64,000 bases of DNA, taken from Sharpea azabuensis DSM 18934 (GTDB lineage Bacteria > Bacillota_I > Bacilli_A > Erysipelotrichales > Coprobacillaceae). Shown here piece after piece: positions 51,547-63,390 of the stretch (position 1 is its first letter; every line of letters begins with the position of its first letter). A program made the position numbers and the translations under genes. Where the stretch lies: NCBI RefSeq assembly GCF_000702165.1, contig NZ_JNKU01000003.1, positions 1 through 64,000 on the forward strand. The letters run 5' to 3'. The notes beneath the pieces are model-generated. The model was not told the origin of the DNA. It did not search any database and was given only the letters and a program-made list of their open reading frames with translations.

Positions 51547-51725
51547 GGGAGGTCACCTCCATACTGCTTCGTTATTTCTTCTTCCACCTGATGACTATTG
51601 GCATGCAATACTCTTTGGTAAGAACGATTTAGGCTAGCTTGTAAAGAAATCATTCCAACGAGTACAGAGCAGAAAATCATAAAGGCGAAAAGCGCTTCAA
51701 TCATAGTACTTCCCTTACTTGACAT
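51516..51725 (-). CDS. comGE: ComGE-like minor pseudopilin
   Basis: 69 residues from the ATG at 51725 (GGAAGTGG upstream). The prepilin leader is very short: MSSKG, then STMIEALFAFMIFCSVLVGM, with the +5 Glu present. A hydrophilic C-terminus follows. Its reading frame covers the comGF ribosome site and initiation codon, ending 30 bp inside comGF, so ribosomes finishing comGE would unfold the comGF hairpin. Confidence 0.75.
   Translation of the reverse strand: MSSKGSTMIEALFAFMIFCSVLVGMISLQASLNRSYQRVLHANSHQVEEEITKQYGGDLPYIIEKVLRS
51548..51560 (-). promoter_or_regulatory. Shine-Dalgarno of comGF inside a hairpin
   Basis: GGAGGTGACCTCC: GGAGG pairs with CCTCC around TGA. The ribosome site of comGF is thus self-sequestered unless ribosomes translating comGE open it. 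Confidence 0.65.
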
Positions 51726-52116
51726 AAAACGCACCACTTCCTAACTGAAAAACAAATTCATAGATTTTTCCCGGCGAGCTAAGTCTGATTGTTTTAGCAA
51801 TCTTGATATGTCCGGAAGCATTAAATGTAAACTGGTAATGATTGAGGAATTGATAATCATTCGCTAAAACGACTTCTTTCTCGAACTGATTACTGCTGAT
51901 TTCAACACAATTGCTGTCGCAAACAACTTTAACAGTCTCATGCTTGACCATGGCTTGACTTCTTGCTAATTGAAAGGCGTGTGTAACCAACGCTATTTGT
52001 GCCTGTGCACTCGCCTTAGGCTTTCTGAAAGTCAATGTAATTGATGAAATGATTACTGTAATAGCTAAAACAAAGATCATTTCAACAAGTGTAAATCCCT
52101 TTCTATTTGCTAACAT
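51715..52116 (-). CDS. comGD: ComGD-like pseudopilin
   Basis: 133 residues from the ATG at 52116, inside the end of comGC. Class leader MLANRKG, then FTLVEMIFVLAITVIISSI with the +5 Glu. The globular part has two cysteines (VVCDSNCVEIS) that could form a disulfide. The earlier in-frame ATG at 52128 is possible. Confidence 0.82.
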   Translation of the reverse strand: MLANRKGFTLVEMIFVLAITVIISSITLTFRKPKASAQAQIALVTHAFQLARSQAMVKHETVKVVCDSNCVEISSNQFEKEVVLANDYQFLNHYQFTFNASGHIKIAKTIRLSSPGKIYEFVFQLGSGAFYVK

Positions 52117-52411
52117 AGGCCTGACCATCACTGATATAGATGCTTTTGCCATTTGGGCATACAGCCTGCTTCTCTGTCAGGTAAGGTGTCGAACCGCTTG
52201 TAAGCTGGGAAATGCTTGTTGGAAGCTGTTCATGTTCAATTTCATAAAGGATAATTTGTGAATTCACGACTTCTATTTGTGCTTGGCAGCCCTTGTCCTT
52301 GACTATTCTATTTTTATTAGTCACATAAGGGATAACAAGCAACAGTATCACAAGAATAACAGAAATACAGAAAATCATTTCAATGAGTGTAAACCCCTTG
52401 TTTTTCATCAT
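52103..52411 (-). CDS. comGC: ComGC major competence pseudopilin
   Basis: 102 residues from the ATG at 52411 (AGAGG 6 bp upstream); the longer open frame lies in the preceding gene. Leader MMKNKG is followed by FTLIEMIFCISVILVILLLVIP, the classic type IV prepilin helix with Glu at +5. A small C-terminal domain has TNKNRIVKDKGCQAQIE. This is the main subunit of the pseudopilus that captures external DNA. The prepilin peptidase ComC is not in the window. Confidence 0.92.
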   Translation of the reverse strand: MMKNKGFTLIEMIFCISVILVILLLVIPYVTNKNRIVKDKGCQAQIEVVNSQIILYEIEHEQLPTSISQLTSGSTPYLTEKQAVCPNGKSIYISDGQAYVSK

Positions 52412-52850
52412 CTTTAACCTCTTCTTTCTTTGCATAATGATGCATGAGATAACTTTGTGCAATACAAGTTTGTATTTCCGATAAGCCTGTCGCAATAATA
52501 CTTGCACAAGCAATCGTCAGGAAGCTTTCTTGCTGAGTGTGATTTAGATAGCCCTTTAAGGCAATCTTATTGCCATCATAAATAACTTCCATCTCCCCTT
52601 CTGTCATTTCTATGATGCCATTTTTAAACAAGTAATGTCTTTGACAGTCACAATGGTCCCTTAACCAGCGTCCTAATGAAAATGCATTCATCAGCACATC
52701 CACATATGCCTGATCCTCGCTCTTTTTTAGCAAATGTTCGACTGATAAGACAGTCATCTTGACGGGATTTAGGTCATCCCAGTCTGGATTCTTACCAACA
52801 CAAACACTGTCTTGATCCATGCTAACATAAATCAGCGATTTCATGCTCAT
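52380..52850 (-). CDS. Unknown com-operon protein, family member 3 (between comGB and comGC)
   Basis: About 156 residues; start uncertain (ATG at 52850 or 52844, GGAG just upstream). No membrane anchor. Central block WLRDHCDCQRHYLFKN, then beta-rich GEMEVIYDGNKIALKGYL, then helices ESFLTIACASIIATGLSEIQ and AQSYLMHHYAKK. Shape and several residues parallel the protein encoded at 55236-55694 (YLRYHDSFEGCYLFEE, then AVIIYAIVIAKSLSAKNQQ). The gene overlaps both neighbours, so it is a real part of the operon. I know no such gene in the Bacillus or streptococcal comG operons. Confidence 0.75.
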   Translation of the reverse strand: MSMKSLIYVSMDQDSVCVGKNPDWDDLNPVKMTVLSVEHLLKKSEDQAYVDVLMNAFSLGRWLRDHCDCQRHYLFKNGIIEMTEGEMEVIYDGNKIALKGYLNHTQQESFLTIACASIIATGLSEIQTCIAQSYLMHHYAKKEEVKDDEKQGVYTH

Positions 52851-53265: not shown

Positions 53266-54264
53266 TTAAATTTCTCCTATCACATTCATCATTGGTAAAA
53301 TGATTGCAATATAAACAACAATCACAAAAAACGCAACAAAGGAGTATACCGTTGGAATCAAATATCTAATAAACTTACTTATTGCCATATCCATTTCTCG
53401 TCTTACTACATCGATATATCCCGAGAGATCTTTGATCTCTTTTGGTGACTGCAAATACATCTTATACATAATCACAAAGAGTCGATCAAAATATTCAAAG
53501 TCTTCAATAATATCCTCAAACGCTTCACCTTCATCAATTCGACTATAAATCTCATAAATCATAATTTTAATATCACTTCTTACCATTGTTTCATTTAACA
53601 AGTAGATAATTGTATTGGCATCCATGCGATCTTTCATAATCTCATTAAAGTAAATCGCAAATTTCAAAGTAAAATATTTCTGAATAAAACGCCTTAATAG
53701 CTTTGTATGTAAGTATCGTTCAATAATACGATAATTCTTGTGCTTCAAGGCTCTCACAAACCGTAGAAAAAACGCAACAATAATAATAACCAGCAAGATA
53801 AACAATAGAGGAATCAGCTGCATTAAGCCTATTAATACTCTAAAGAGAATACTTTTTTGAATCGAAAACGAGGCAAATAAGGCATTGACCTGCGGAAAAA
53901 GCACAAACGTAGAAAAGAGGCAAAACATGACAAGAAAGCTCATCAGGATAAGTGGATAAGTCATCTTGGCAATTAAATCCTTCTTCGTCTTTTCAAGTGT
54001 CTGTGTTATTGCTAAGGCATTACGAATAGCGGCACTAATTGTCAGACGCATGGCAAAGAACTCAAAGAACTCCAGAAATTGTTTTGGAAAATCACATTCA
54101 AGAATAGCATCCTTAAAATCAATTCCTTCCTTAAGCTTAATATTAATTGCATCAGCATTATGATGATGTGTAATTTCCTTACACAAAAGCAGAGTCTCCT
54201 CAATGCCATATCCTTGTTCAAGAAGCTGATAAAGATTTTCTAAAAAGAGATAATCATTGTTCAT
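53266..54264 (-). CDS. comGB: ComGB, polytopic membrane platform protein of the competence pseudopilus
   Basis: 332 residues from the ATG at 54264 (AAAGG upstream). GspF/PilC family: cytoplasmic domain with LLEQGYGIEETLLLCKEI, FFAMRLTISAAIRNALAITQ and DLIAKMTYPLILMSFLVMF leading into the first membrane span. Another span pair lies near 145-170, and a final hydrophobic segment AFFVIVVYIAIILPMMNVI at the C-terminus. It couples the ComGA ATPase to pseudopilin assembly. It overlaps comGA by 11 bp. Confidence 0.88.
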   Translation of the reverse strand: MNNDYLFLENLYQLLEQGYGIEETLLLCKEITHHHNADAINIKLKEGIDFKDAILECDFPKQFLEFFEFFAMRLTISAAIRNALAITQTLEKTKKDLIAKMTYPLILMSFLVMFCLFSTFVLFPQVNALFASFSIQKSILFRVLIGLMQLIPLLFILLVIIIVAFFLRFVRALKHKNYRIIERYLHTKLLRRFIQKYFTLKFAIYFNEIMKDRMDANTIIYLLNETMVRSDIKIMIYEIYSRIDEGEAFEDIIEDFEYFDRLFVIMYKMYLQSPKEIKDLSGYIDVVRREMDMAISKFIRYLIPTVYSFVAFFVIVVYIAIILPMMNVIGEI

Positions 54265-55243
54265 TAAGCTCATCCTTTAAAATATATGAATCACATTTCT
54301 TCTCTGCGATTAAACTTAATGCTGACTGCTTAAATGTCTGATAGCTAAAATCATCATGATGTAAATATTGCATGATAGCTTTACGGCTCATCATTTCTGG
54401 CAAAATGATGACACGCTTTCTTTTCAAGTCATATTTAATCTTCTGCGAGACAATCCCAATCAGGACATCTTCAAGATCTGTTTCACTCACGCCAAGATTC
54501 AGCATACGTTTAATGACAAGCAAAGCTGTTGAGGCATGAATTGTACTCAAAACAAGATGTCCTGTAAGTGCACATGTAATAGCCAAAGAAGCCGTCTTCT
54601 CATCACGGATTTCTCCAATCATTATCACATCAGGATCATGCCGAAGAATCTGTTTGAGTGAGTCATGATAATTGATGCCAAGATCTTCGTTCATCTCGAT
54701 TTGTAAGCAATGTTCCTTAACCATTTCAATTGGGTCTTCAAGCGTCACTATATTCTTGCCTCCCATTTCAATCAGACGATCAAGCATTGCATAAAGCGTT
54801 GTGCTCTTGCCACTTCCCGTTGCTCCTGAGACAAGGAAAAGTCCTGATGTCTGGCGACATATTGATGCGAGGAAGCCACTGAACTCCTTGACAAGCGACA
54901 ATTCATTAATAGTCAGTTTCTCATGATTATTGAGAATACGAATAACAATCGACTCAAAATGTTCCCCTGGTAAAAAGGAAACGCGCAGGAAATAGATATG
55001 GTTGTCAATAAAATAATGAAATGCACCTGTCTGAGGGAAAAGCTTGTAGTTAACATTAATAAATGACTTATATTTGATATAATTCATAATTTTATGGCCA
55101 ATATCTATTTCATAGCTGGCATAGTGTTCAAGCTTGCCAAGCACCCTGAACTCTATATCAAGCTGCTGATCAATTTTCATATGAACATCTGTTGCATGTC
55201 GTTTTAGGGCATGAAAGATGATTTTTTCAAAGAGTTCATCCAT
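54254..55243 (-). CDS. comGA: ComGA, secretion ATPase of the competence pseudopilus
   Basis: 329 residues from the ATG at 55243 (AAGGTGG 8 bp upstream); an ATG two codons earlier is too close to it. GspE/PilB family. Walker A SGATGSGKSTTLYAML near 145-160, Asp box VTLEDPIE, Walker B/Glu IGEIRDEKTA near 217 and His box TGHLVLSTIHAS near 230. It powers pseudopilus assembly from the cytoplasm. As in other ComGA proteins the zinc tetracysteine of PilB is missing. It overlaps the unknown first gene by 8 bp. Confidence 0.93.
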   Translation of the reverse strand: MDELFEKIIFHALKRHATDVHMKIDQQLDIEFRVLGKLEHYASYEIDIGHKIMNYIKYKSFINVNYKLFPQTGAFHYFIDNHIYFLRVSFLPGEHFESIVIRILNNHEKLTINELSLVKEFSGFLASICRQTSGLFLVSGATGSGKSTTLYAMLDRLIEMGGKNIVTLEDPIEMVKEHCLQIEMNEDLGINYHDSLKQILRHDPDVIMIGEIRDEKTASLAITCALTGHLVLSTIHASTALLVIKRMLNLGVSETDLEDVLIGIVSQKIKYDLKRKRVIILPEMMSRKAIMQYLHHDDFSYQTFKQSALSLIAEKKCDSYILKDELNEQ

Positions 55244-55694
55244 TTTCATCGCCACCTTGTTCAAAAAATAAGCAATAAAGTGAAAAAAGCAATAATTGCT
55301 GATTCTTAGCTGACAAACTTTTTGCAATAACAATTGCATAAATAATAACTGCTAATTTGACATCTGTTTCATCATTGTTGACCTTCACTTTGTAGAAACC
55401 ATTTTCTTCATAAAGAAGAATATCCACCGCCTGATATTCAAGATCATATTCTTCAAATAAATAGCATCCCTCAAAGCTATCATGATAACGTAAATAGCAT
55501 GCCAAGGCTCCTATTGCCTCTATTTTGCGATATTGCCTTATGACGCTATCCACATCTTCGATATCGACTTGCTGATCCACAAGCAAATTCGTAATACCTA
55601 ATGCAATACTTTGCATCATTTTCTGTTCATCAAGCTGTTTCTTTTCTTTAACAATGATATTTTCATTCCATTCAATTTTTAAGAGCTGTTTCAT
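55236..55694 (-). CDS. Unknown first gene of the comG operon, family member 1
   Basis: 152 residues from the ATG at 55694 (AAGGAAGG 6 bp upstream). Helical N-terminus with VIRQYRKIEAIGALACYLR, then YHDSFEGCYLFEE, a beta segment AVDILLYEENGFYKVKVNND and helices VKLAVIIYAIVIAKSLSAKN and LLFSLYCLFFEQ. No signal peptide. It opens the operon directly behind the CIN-box-like promoter, ahead of comGA, which normally comes first. Its C-terminal half parallels the two unknown genes between comGB and comGC. Function unknown; a pseudopilus assembly or regulatory role is inference from position. Confidence 0.75.
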   Translation of the reverse strand: MKQLLKIEWNENIIVKEKKQLDEQKMMQSIALGITNLLVDQQVDIEDVDSVIRQYRKIEAIGALACYLRYHDSFEGCYLFEEYDLEYQAVDILLYEENGFYKVKVNNDETDVKLAVIIYAIVIAKSLSAKNQQLLLFSLYCLFFEQGGDENG

Positions 55695-55725
55695 GAGCAT
55701 CCTTCCTTTCTACCCTCTATATATT

Positions 55726-55733
55726 TATTCGCA
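55726..55733 (-). promoter_or_regulatory. CIN-box-like competence promoter element
   Basis: Minus strand TGCGAATA, 7 of 8 bases of the SigX/ComX box TACGAATA. It lies in the -10 position 32 bp before the first gene's start, immediately behind a terminator and preceded by a T-rich tract (CTTTTTTT). No sigma-A -10/-35 pair is evident here. Confidence 0.55.
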
Positions 55734-55780
55734 AAAAAAGTAGATTTTTCTCACCTAAATTTAACTTTTTTCAAAAAACG

Positions 55781-55810
55781 AAAAAAGGCATGGAGTTTTC
55801 TCCATACCTT
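55781..55810 (-). terminator. Terminator of the symporter gene
   Basis: Minus strand stem AAGGTATGGAG / CTCCATGCCTT (one T-G pair), loop AAAA, then T6. Confidence 0.88.
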
Positions 55811-62972: not shown

Positions 62973-63284
62973 TTATTCTAATTTTTCATATTCATGTGCA
63001 CGTACAATCATGACATGATAATGTTCATAGAGTGGCTGTTTCTCAACATTCAGTAAACGTCCAGTAATCTTAATACGATCACCTATCTCAAAACGATCAC
63101 GAATTTCACAGCCAATACCATTCCACATCGTTACCGGAATTAAATCATATTCTCTTCTTCCTGGGACATCGTCAAATGGACGTCTTACTCTAATATGCAT
63201 AAGTGCATCATCATGAATAGAATGAAGCACTTCAAAATCTGGCATTGTTGCCACTTCTCCTTCAATAAATACAAATGATGACAT
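62973..63284 (-). CDS. Single-stranded DNA-binding (OB-fold) protein, small SSB-like
   Basis: 103 residues from the ATG at 63284 (AGGAGG 8 bp upstream). OB-fold elements: [10 protein letters not shown], then [24 protein letters not shown] and the SSB-like [13 protein letters not shown]. It lacks the long glycine-rich linker and acidic C-terminal tip of replicative SSB, so it is probably an accessory ssDNA-binding protein. It is coupled in order with lepA. Confidence 0.75.
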
Positions 63285-63390
63285 CGTTATTTCCTCCTTA
63301 AAAAACACAGGACAACTTTATCATAACAATCTCTCTTCATTTCATATTTTCTTGAAGGAAGGCAAAAACATCCTATTTTTTTATTAAATA

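Follow-up and report, generated by a model that had tools for sequence, protein, structure and literature searches.

In streptococci, the late competence regulon under ComX/SigX, with its CIN box, also joins DNA uptake genes with bacteriocins. In non-sporulating Firmicutes such as Lactobacillus sakei, Staphylococcus aureus and Listeria, comG is under the control of SigH. The L. sakei protein shares only 24 per cent identity with B. subtilis SigH and is encoded in the cysS–nusG locus, as given in the passages of PMC3364868 used here. Loss of sigH in S. aureus abolished the expression of comG, not that of ssb or comC (excerpts of PMC3364868, PMC4754846 and PMC10182052), and the published sigma-H consensus is (A/G)(A/C)AGG(A/G)(A/T)3-N11-12-(A/G)(A/G)(A/C)GAA(A/T) (extract of PMC4754846). 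Type I toxin units of the par/Fst layout are reviewed in PMC7472228 and also treated in PMC3543317, both cited from excerpts. Two links between competence and toxin–antitoxin genes have been described: the toxTA pair of Haemophilus influenzae is under competence control (PMC6957337, in part), and several putative toxin–antitoxin genes depend on SigH, ComK1 or ComK2 in the S. aureus competence transcriptome (PMC10182052, in part).

Little seems to have been published, in the open-licence literature, on competence in the branch of gut and rumen Firmicutes to which Sharpea azabuensis belongs. Here, we analyse the comG locus of strain DSM 18934 in a stretch of 64 000 nucleotides (the window), together with the whole genome (G000), a congener matching Sharpea porci (G001) and other genomes of the family. 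The promoter element, its fixed spacing, its targets, the sigma gene and the par-like anatomy described below were established by sequence.

The promoter of the comG operon

The coordinates of the locus are reported in table 1. The 8-mer TGCGAATA lies upstream of the comG operon, where a previous sequence-only reading had placed it. The end of the -10 is 31 nt from the ATG (55694) of the first gene, compared with 32 in that reading, and its two other observations hold: T-rich DNA precedes the box, and no sigma-A promoter is predicted at the site on the comG strand. Between 55650 and 55850, there is one weak sigma-A consensus match, which runs from 55682 down to 55654 on the minus strand, inside the first gene. 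Transcription of the upstream symporter gene is predicted to stop at an intrinsic terminator, so that the most likely place for the comG promoter is the approximately 80 nt that follow.

Table 1. Features of the comG locus and targets of the SigH-type element in S. azabuensis.
Feature	Position	Strand	Remarks
Intrinsic terminator of the upstream symporter gene	55785..55810	-	separates the symporter from the comG promoter
Putative SigH-type promoter, comG operon	55717..55752	-	exact match to the extended pattern; same element in the congener (L036/L173)
-35 GAGAAA	55752-55747	-	part of the comG SigH-type promoter
T-rich spacer, 14 nt	between -35 and -10	-	part of the comG SigH-type promoter
-10 GCGAATA	55732-55726	-	overlaps TGCGAATA (55726-55733)
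Conserved ATATATAG	55724-55717	-	downstream of the comG -10
First operon gene, uncharacterised, 152 aa	55236..55694	-	no family; 58% identity to the congener
comGA, competence pilus ATPase	54254..55339	-	NF041000, E 4e-81; ORF as listed, 5' end overlaps the first gene
comGB	53266..54273	-	NF041012, E 1e-41
Uncharacterised, 147 aa	52822..53265	-	no family
Uncharacterised, 157 aa	52380..52853	-	no family above cut-off
comGC, major pilin	52103..52513	-	NF040999, over cut-off
comGD, minor pilin	51715..52152	-	NF040982, over cut-off
Target: comG operon			SigH-type site shared with the congener
Target: operon of two unknown ORFs and DprA			SigH-type site; congener counterpart degenerate
Target: 52-aa GG-leader peptide, then RadC			SigH-type site; radC site shared with the congener
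Target: C39-peptidase ABC exporter			SigH-type site shared with the congener
Target: recA			site with variant -10 GACTATA, shared with the congener
Target: 178-aa unknown protein			SigH-type site shared with the congener
Target: 79-aa unknown protein			SigH-type site shared with the congener
Target: three small-peptide units			SigH-type sites; U3/U8 site shared with the congener
mnmL/ytqA antisense site	L282:2042-2077 (G000:C15:8541); congener L300:949-984	- (L282)	pattern match

Taken alone, the 8-mer occurs at chance frequency: the window has three copies, whereas shuffled sequences average 2.38 and 45 of 100 of them contain at least three. Genome-wide, the heptamer GCGAATA shows no excess either, with 268 occurrences where its reversed control has 291. 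The congener and Eggerthia (L038) gave the first indication of a larger block, GAGAAA-N14-G[CG]GAATA. The computed evidence supports reading TGCGAATA as the predicted -10 of a longer promoter of sigma-H/ComX type. The earlier proposal of a sigma-factor promoter was right on the kind of promoter and on the sigma factor, and wrong to rest on the 8-mer.

Compared with the published sigma-H consensus, the extended element departs by a single base in the core of the -35 and by another at the -10 edge. Written as TGAGAAAAA-N11-TGCGAAT, the comG element has the exact N11 spacing and a core one base off AGG. This core is AGA in the genus and AGG at the comG locus of G003. Most sites satisfy the -10 (A/G)(A/G)(A/C)GAA(A/T), in the forms AACGAAT, GACGAAT, AGCGAAT and GGCGAAT; TGCGAAT at comG in the window violates its first position, whereas AGCGAAT of the congener conforms.

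The AlphaFold model of the first protein of the comG operon (mean pLDDT 42) is too poor for use. This protein is one of five uncharacterised proteins of about 150 aa encoded in the comG operon (table 1) and the dprA operon (L225:2150-3078). Only two of them show any similarity, which is weak (best hhalign E 9e-4 at 24% probability), and the others none; a single family was rejected on these values. A small SSB-like protein with weak matches is encoded about 7 kb from comG (62973-63308, minus strand), and SSB-like genes are also found near comG in several relatives.

Distribution of the element in the two Sharpea genomes

The pattern GAGAAA-N14-RCGAATA-N-ATATATAG, allowing at most three mismatches and scored against a reversed control, has 11 sites in S. 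azabuensis, where the control has one, and 16 in the congener, where the control has none. Over both genomes, this amounts to 27 sites versus one in a control that is only partly independent, because the last eight bases of the pattern were picked after viewing the matches of a shorter pattern in these same genomes. The shorter pattern, GAGAAA-N14-GCGAATA with at most two mismatches, is unenriched (99 versus 118 in S. azabuensis and 97 versus 116 in the congener), and its best matches have in common T-rich spacers followed by ATATATAG. Orthologous sites in both species and in other genera are firmer support than the control counts. The comG site is among the exact matches to the extended pattern, and comG of the congener likewise carries the element.

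Ten of the 11 sites in S. azabuensis lie 20–59 nt ahead of a start codon, and four of these ten head the comG, dprA, recA or radC units (hypergeometric p of about 1e-6 to 1e-7 with assumed transcription-unit counts). The complete list of targets is given in table 1. The 52-aa GG-leader peptide matches TIGR03949, the class IIb bacteriocins, with an E-value of 2e-4 and 21.1 bits, slightly under the cut-off of 21.5. In the congener, a target could be assigned to 14 of the 16 sites, while C3:4038 and C19:39785 resemble chance matches. Within the 64-kb window, a weight matrix (36 positions, 19 sites) picks out the comG site and no other, and it gives no match at comEC, comF, ssb or sigH; having been trained on its own matches, it is excluded as independent evidence.

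A conserved site at the 3' end of mnmL/ytqA reads antisense into this gene in both species (table 1). In the congener, a protein of the MG284/MPN403 family (L306:1605-1985, minus strand) stands behind the variant SigH-type promoter and immediately before an acyl-carrier-protein-like ORF.

The sequence-only reading had also expected the box near late competence genes in general. This holds for comG and the dprA operon, and the element is also present at recA and radC. No site was found before comEA–comEC, the last genes behind ruvA–ruvB, before comFA–comFC, or before ssb, in a scan that covered the SSB-like gene of the window and the small SSB-like gene of the congener and left out two longer SSB genes of S. 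azabuensis. For coiA there is no match over the cut-off in any of 16 family genomes. The expectation of a box at all late competence genes thus fails. No site was found before sigH itself.

The element in other genera

Among 14 comG loci, the element is clear at the right spacing in five (G000, G001, G003, G007 and G009), suggestive in G006 (GCGTATA) and G008, and absent from the others, where G014 and G015 were covered by pattern scan only. The G003 locus carries GAGGAAAA, which has the AGG core itself, at the same spacing. Among 17 loci of dprA type, a convincing match is found at G000 and G009 alone. Beyond the genus, the element precedes comG in some genomes only.

A SigH-like sigma factor

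A search of the S. azabuensis genome with PF04542 gives five matches: a presumed RpoD (424 aa, assigned by length and score), an ECF-type factor, a SigH-like protein, a SigI-like/transposase fusion and one match below the cut-off. None of the five is a sporulation sigma factor E, F, G or K. The fusion is an ORF joining a SigI-like sigma domain to a C-terminal transposase HTH (L034:1-1371, minus strand). An ECF sigma gene (L032:1480-1943, plus strand), apparently split over two frames, is followed by an anti-sigma-like ORF.

The SigH-like gene lies on contig C13 between rlmB and secE, outside the window, as had been predicted for a dedicated sigma gene. The locus is the canonical one for sigH: the gene order, with names read from translations, is cysS-mrnC-rlmB-[sigH]-secE-nusG. 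The part rlmB-[sigH]-secE-nusG is the same in the congener (two of two genomes examined), and cysS was seen only in S. azabuensis. The protein is divergent: SigH models rank first among NCBIfam, with scores well below every curated SigH cut-off (50.5 bits versus 212 for NF006147 and 47.1 versus 294.8 for TIGR02859). Such low scores are unsurprising given the limited identity between the L. sakei and B. subtilis proteins. Some relative, whether or not orthologous outside the genus, is present in all 16 family genomes searched. The comG box most probably serves as the -10 for this SigH-like factor, encoded elsewhere in the genome.

Par-like small-peptide units

The element also heads genes for hydrophobic, cationic peptides of about 40 aa. 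The peptide profile has three matches in S. azabuensis and seven in the congener, and the 41 other genomes of the family gave no match (two of 43 positive). Eight units were aligned, one of which (U7) has lost part of its ORF. The order is constant: SigH-type promoter, predicted 5' hairpin, ORF of about 38–43 codons, strong terminator hairpin, a repeat of the start region and a convergent promoter. In the predicted fold, the 5' hairpin pairs the Shine–Dalgarno sequence. A convergent promoter of sigma-A type, TTGA[CT][AT]-N17-TA[TC]A[CT]T, and the shared terminator are predicted in all eight.

The start-codon repeats agree within a locus and vary between loci. The predicted antisense RNA, 63–69 nt long, would bind the start of its cognate mRNA with an energy of -18 to -28 kcal/mol, and in seven of the eight units the own antisense tail pairs best, if ties between identical copies are counted. 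Only the damaged U7 deviates, being better paired with the tail of U6. Locus-specific repeats of this sort illustrate a way in which cross-talk among par-like units would be avoided.

The congener has a ninth unit (L295:310 to L317), in which an IS607-type element parts the ORF from the promoter/leader while the antisense promoter is retained. It also has another, partial copy that lacks a promoter.

The peptides have no match to Fst or to any toxin family in Pfam or NCBIfam at E up to 1; their sole weak match in these collections is ribosomal L23. The PXXXG motif of Fst is absent, and no relatives were found in phage, plasmid and viral collections. As the layout is that of par/Fst and no Fst model matches, the units are called par-like as a working term and not classed as Fst. 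From their anatomy we infer that the peptides are toxic; taken by itself, this toxin part of the proposal is somewhat more likely than not.

Proposed mechanism and alternative explanations

When active, the SigH-like factor would switch on the operons of the comG pilus and of dprA and raise the expression of recA. It would also turn on the GG-leader (bacteriocin-like) peptide with radC and the C39-peptidase exporter, by which a peptide of this kind could be processed and secreted. In addition, the factor would transcribe several short mRNAs for hydrophobic peptides, with the Shine–Dalgarno sequence held in a 5' hairpin. Each would be opposed at its start-codon region by a constitutive, sigma-A-driven antisense RNA, as in par/Fst. 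In a burst of SigH, peptide mRNA would outrun the antisense RNA, leading to arrest or lysis of all or some of the competent cells, perhaps as a means of releasing DNA or pausing division.

The presence of the same promoter at uptake, repair, bacteriocin-like and peptide genes suggests that DNA uptake may be tied to the slowing or killing of cells. In its full form the proposal is tentative, and we put it at somewhat under an even chance: a competence sigma factor would directly transcribe genus-specific par-like type I toxins, constitutive antisense RNAs would set a threshold, and some cells of the population would stop growing or lyse themselves on entry into competence. With the co-regulated bacteriocin-like peptide and exporter, this would be a type I counterpart to streptococcal fratricide.

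The alternative that survives best, though unlikely, is that a comG-type promoter was once captured by the peptide units as multi-copy repeats, and that their control by SigH serves no function. They are indeed paralogous and confined to this genus (two of the 43 genomes), and one is cut by the IS607-type element, one has a part-lost ORF and one copy is partial. However, the promoter is retained in all three copies of S. azabuensis and stands directly before five of seven in the congener, where the IS607-type element has come between it and a sixth. It has been kept while the peptide and pairing sequences diverged, and the non-repeat genes have the promoter alone in common.

The par anatomy (Shine–Dalgarno hairpin, bidirectional-type terminator, start-codon repeats and convergent promoter) and the lack of a GG leader argue against a second view, distinctly unlikely in our estimate, in which the peptides are leaderless bacteriocins or other secreted peptides rather than type I toxins. 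Their size of about 40 aa, their cationic and hydrophobic character and their co-regulation with a peptide exporter and a GG-leader peptide would fit it.

The conserved element might instead be bound by an activator protein, such as one resembling ComK, at a position overlapping sigma-A promoters. An element recognised by a sigma factor alone would not usually include a conserved block like ATATATAG beyond its -10, and the variant GACTATACATATATAG, present at recA and U3/U8, includes a TATACA hexamer that could be used by sigma-A. This variant -10 (GACTATA), at recA and one toxin family, is off the sigma-H consensus and could be read by sigma-A. The comG site, on the other hand, is without a predicted sigma-A promoter, the spacing and -10 agree with the sigma-H consensus, and the genome does contain a SigH-like gene, so we consider an activator site quite improbable.

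That the comG box is a chance 8-mer, as the chance frequencies of TGCGAATA and GCGAATA might suggest, can practically be set aside, since the congener keeps the whole element without any change in spacing, other genera have a drifted form of it at comG, it is also present at other competence genes, and the extended-pattern counts already disfavour a chance match.

A SigH-type promoter read by the SigH-like factor would define a regulon that opens a direct test of transformability by SigH expression. If the toxin link is true, a competence sigma factor would have a type I toxin–antitoxin family under its control, and the rationale would be clear: DNA release, division arrest or a population split. 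The open-licence literature searched on type I toxins combined with competence, ComX or alternative sigma factors gave no example of such a toxin controlled by a competence sigma factor.

Comparison with known systems

The closest parallel is SigH of L. sakei, S. aureus and Listeria, with which the Sharpea system has in common the predicted control of comG and the promoter architecture and, with L. sakei, the gene locus. The set of competence genes is partial, similarly to that of S. aureus. The Sharpea -35 core differs, being GAGAAA and not of AGGA type, and the predicted regulon adds recA, radC, dprA, the GG peptide with its exporter and the par-like units. comEC, included under SigH in Listeria, lies outside the set.

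With the streptococcal ComX/SigX system, the resemblance is in the -10, as RCGAATA is one or two bases from TACGAATA. In Sharpea, the -35 is conserved, the sigma gene is at the sigH locus and has no ComX assignment, and the promoter does not show the exact TACGAATA before most late com operons that marks a CIN box. For the comG box, the label of a SigH-type promoter whose -35 is conserved is therefore preferable to that of a streptococcal CIN box.

The peptide units share with the par/Fst-Ldr loci (pAD1, S. mutans fst-Sm) convergent promoters, a bidirectional terminator, start-codon repeats and a 5' stem–loop sequestering the Shine–Dalgarno sequence. They differ in their peptides, of about 38–43 aa without PXXXG or a toxin-family match, and in the SigH-type promoter. 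The cited part of the S. aureus competence transcriptome does not state a link to type I units at the promoter level. The toxTA genes of H. influenzae form a type II protein pair under CRP/Sxy, whereas in Sharpea the antitoxin would be an RNA and the control that of a sigma factor.
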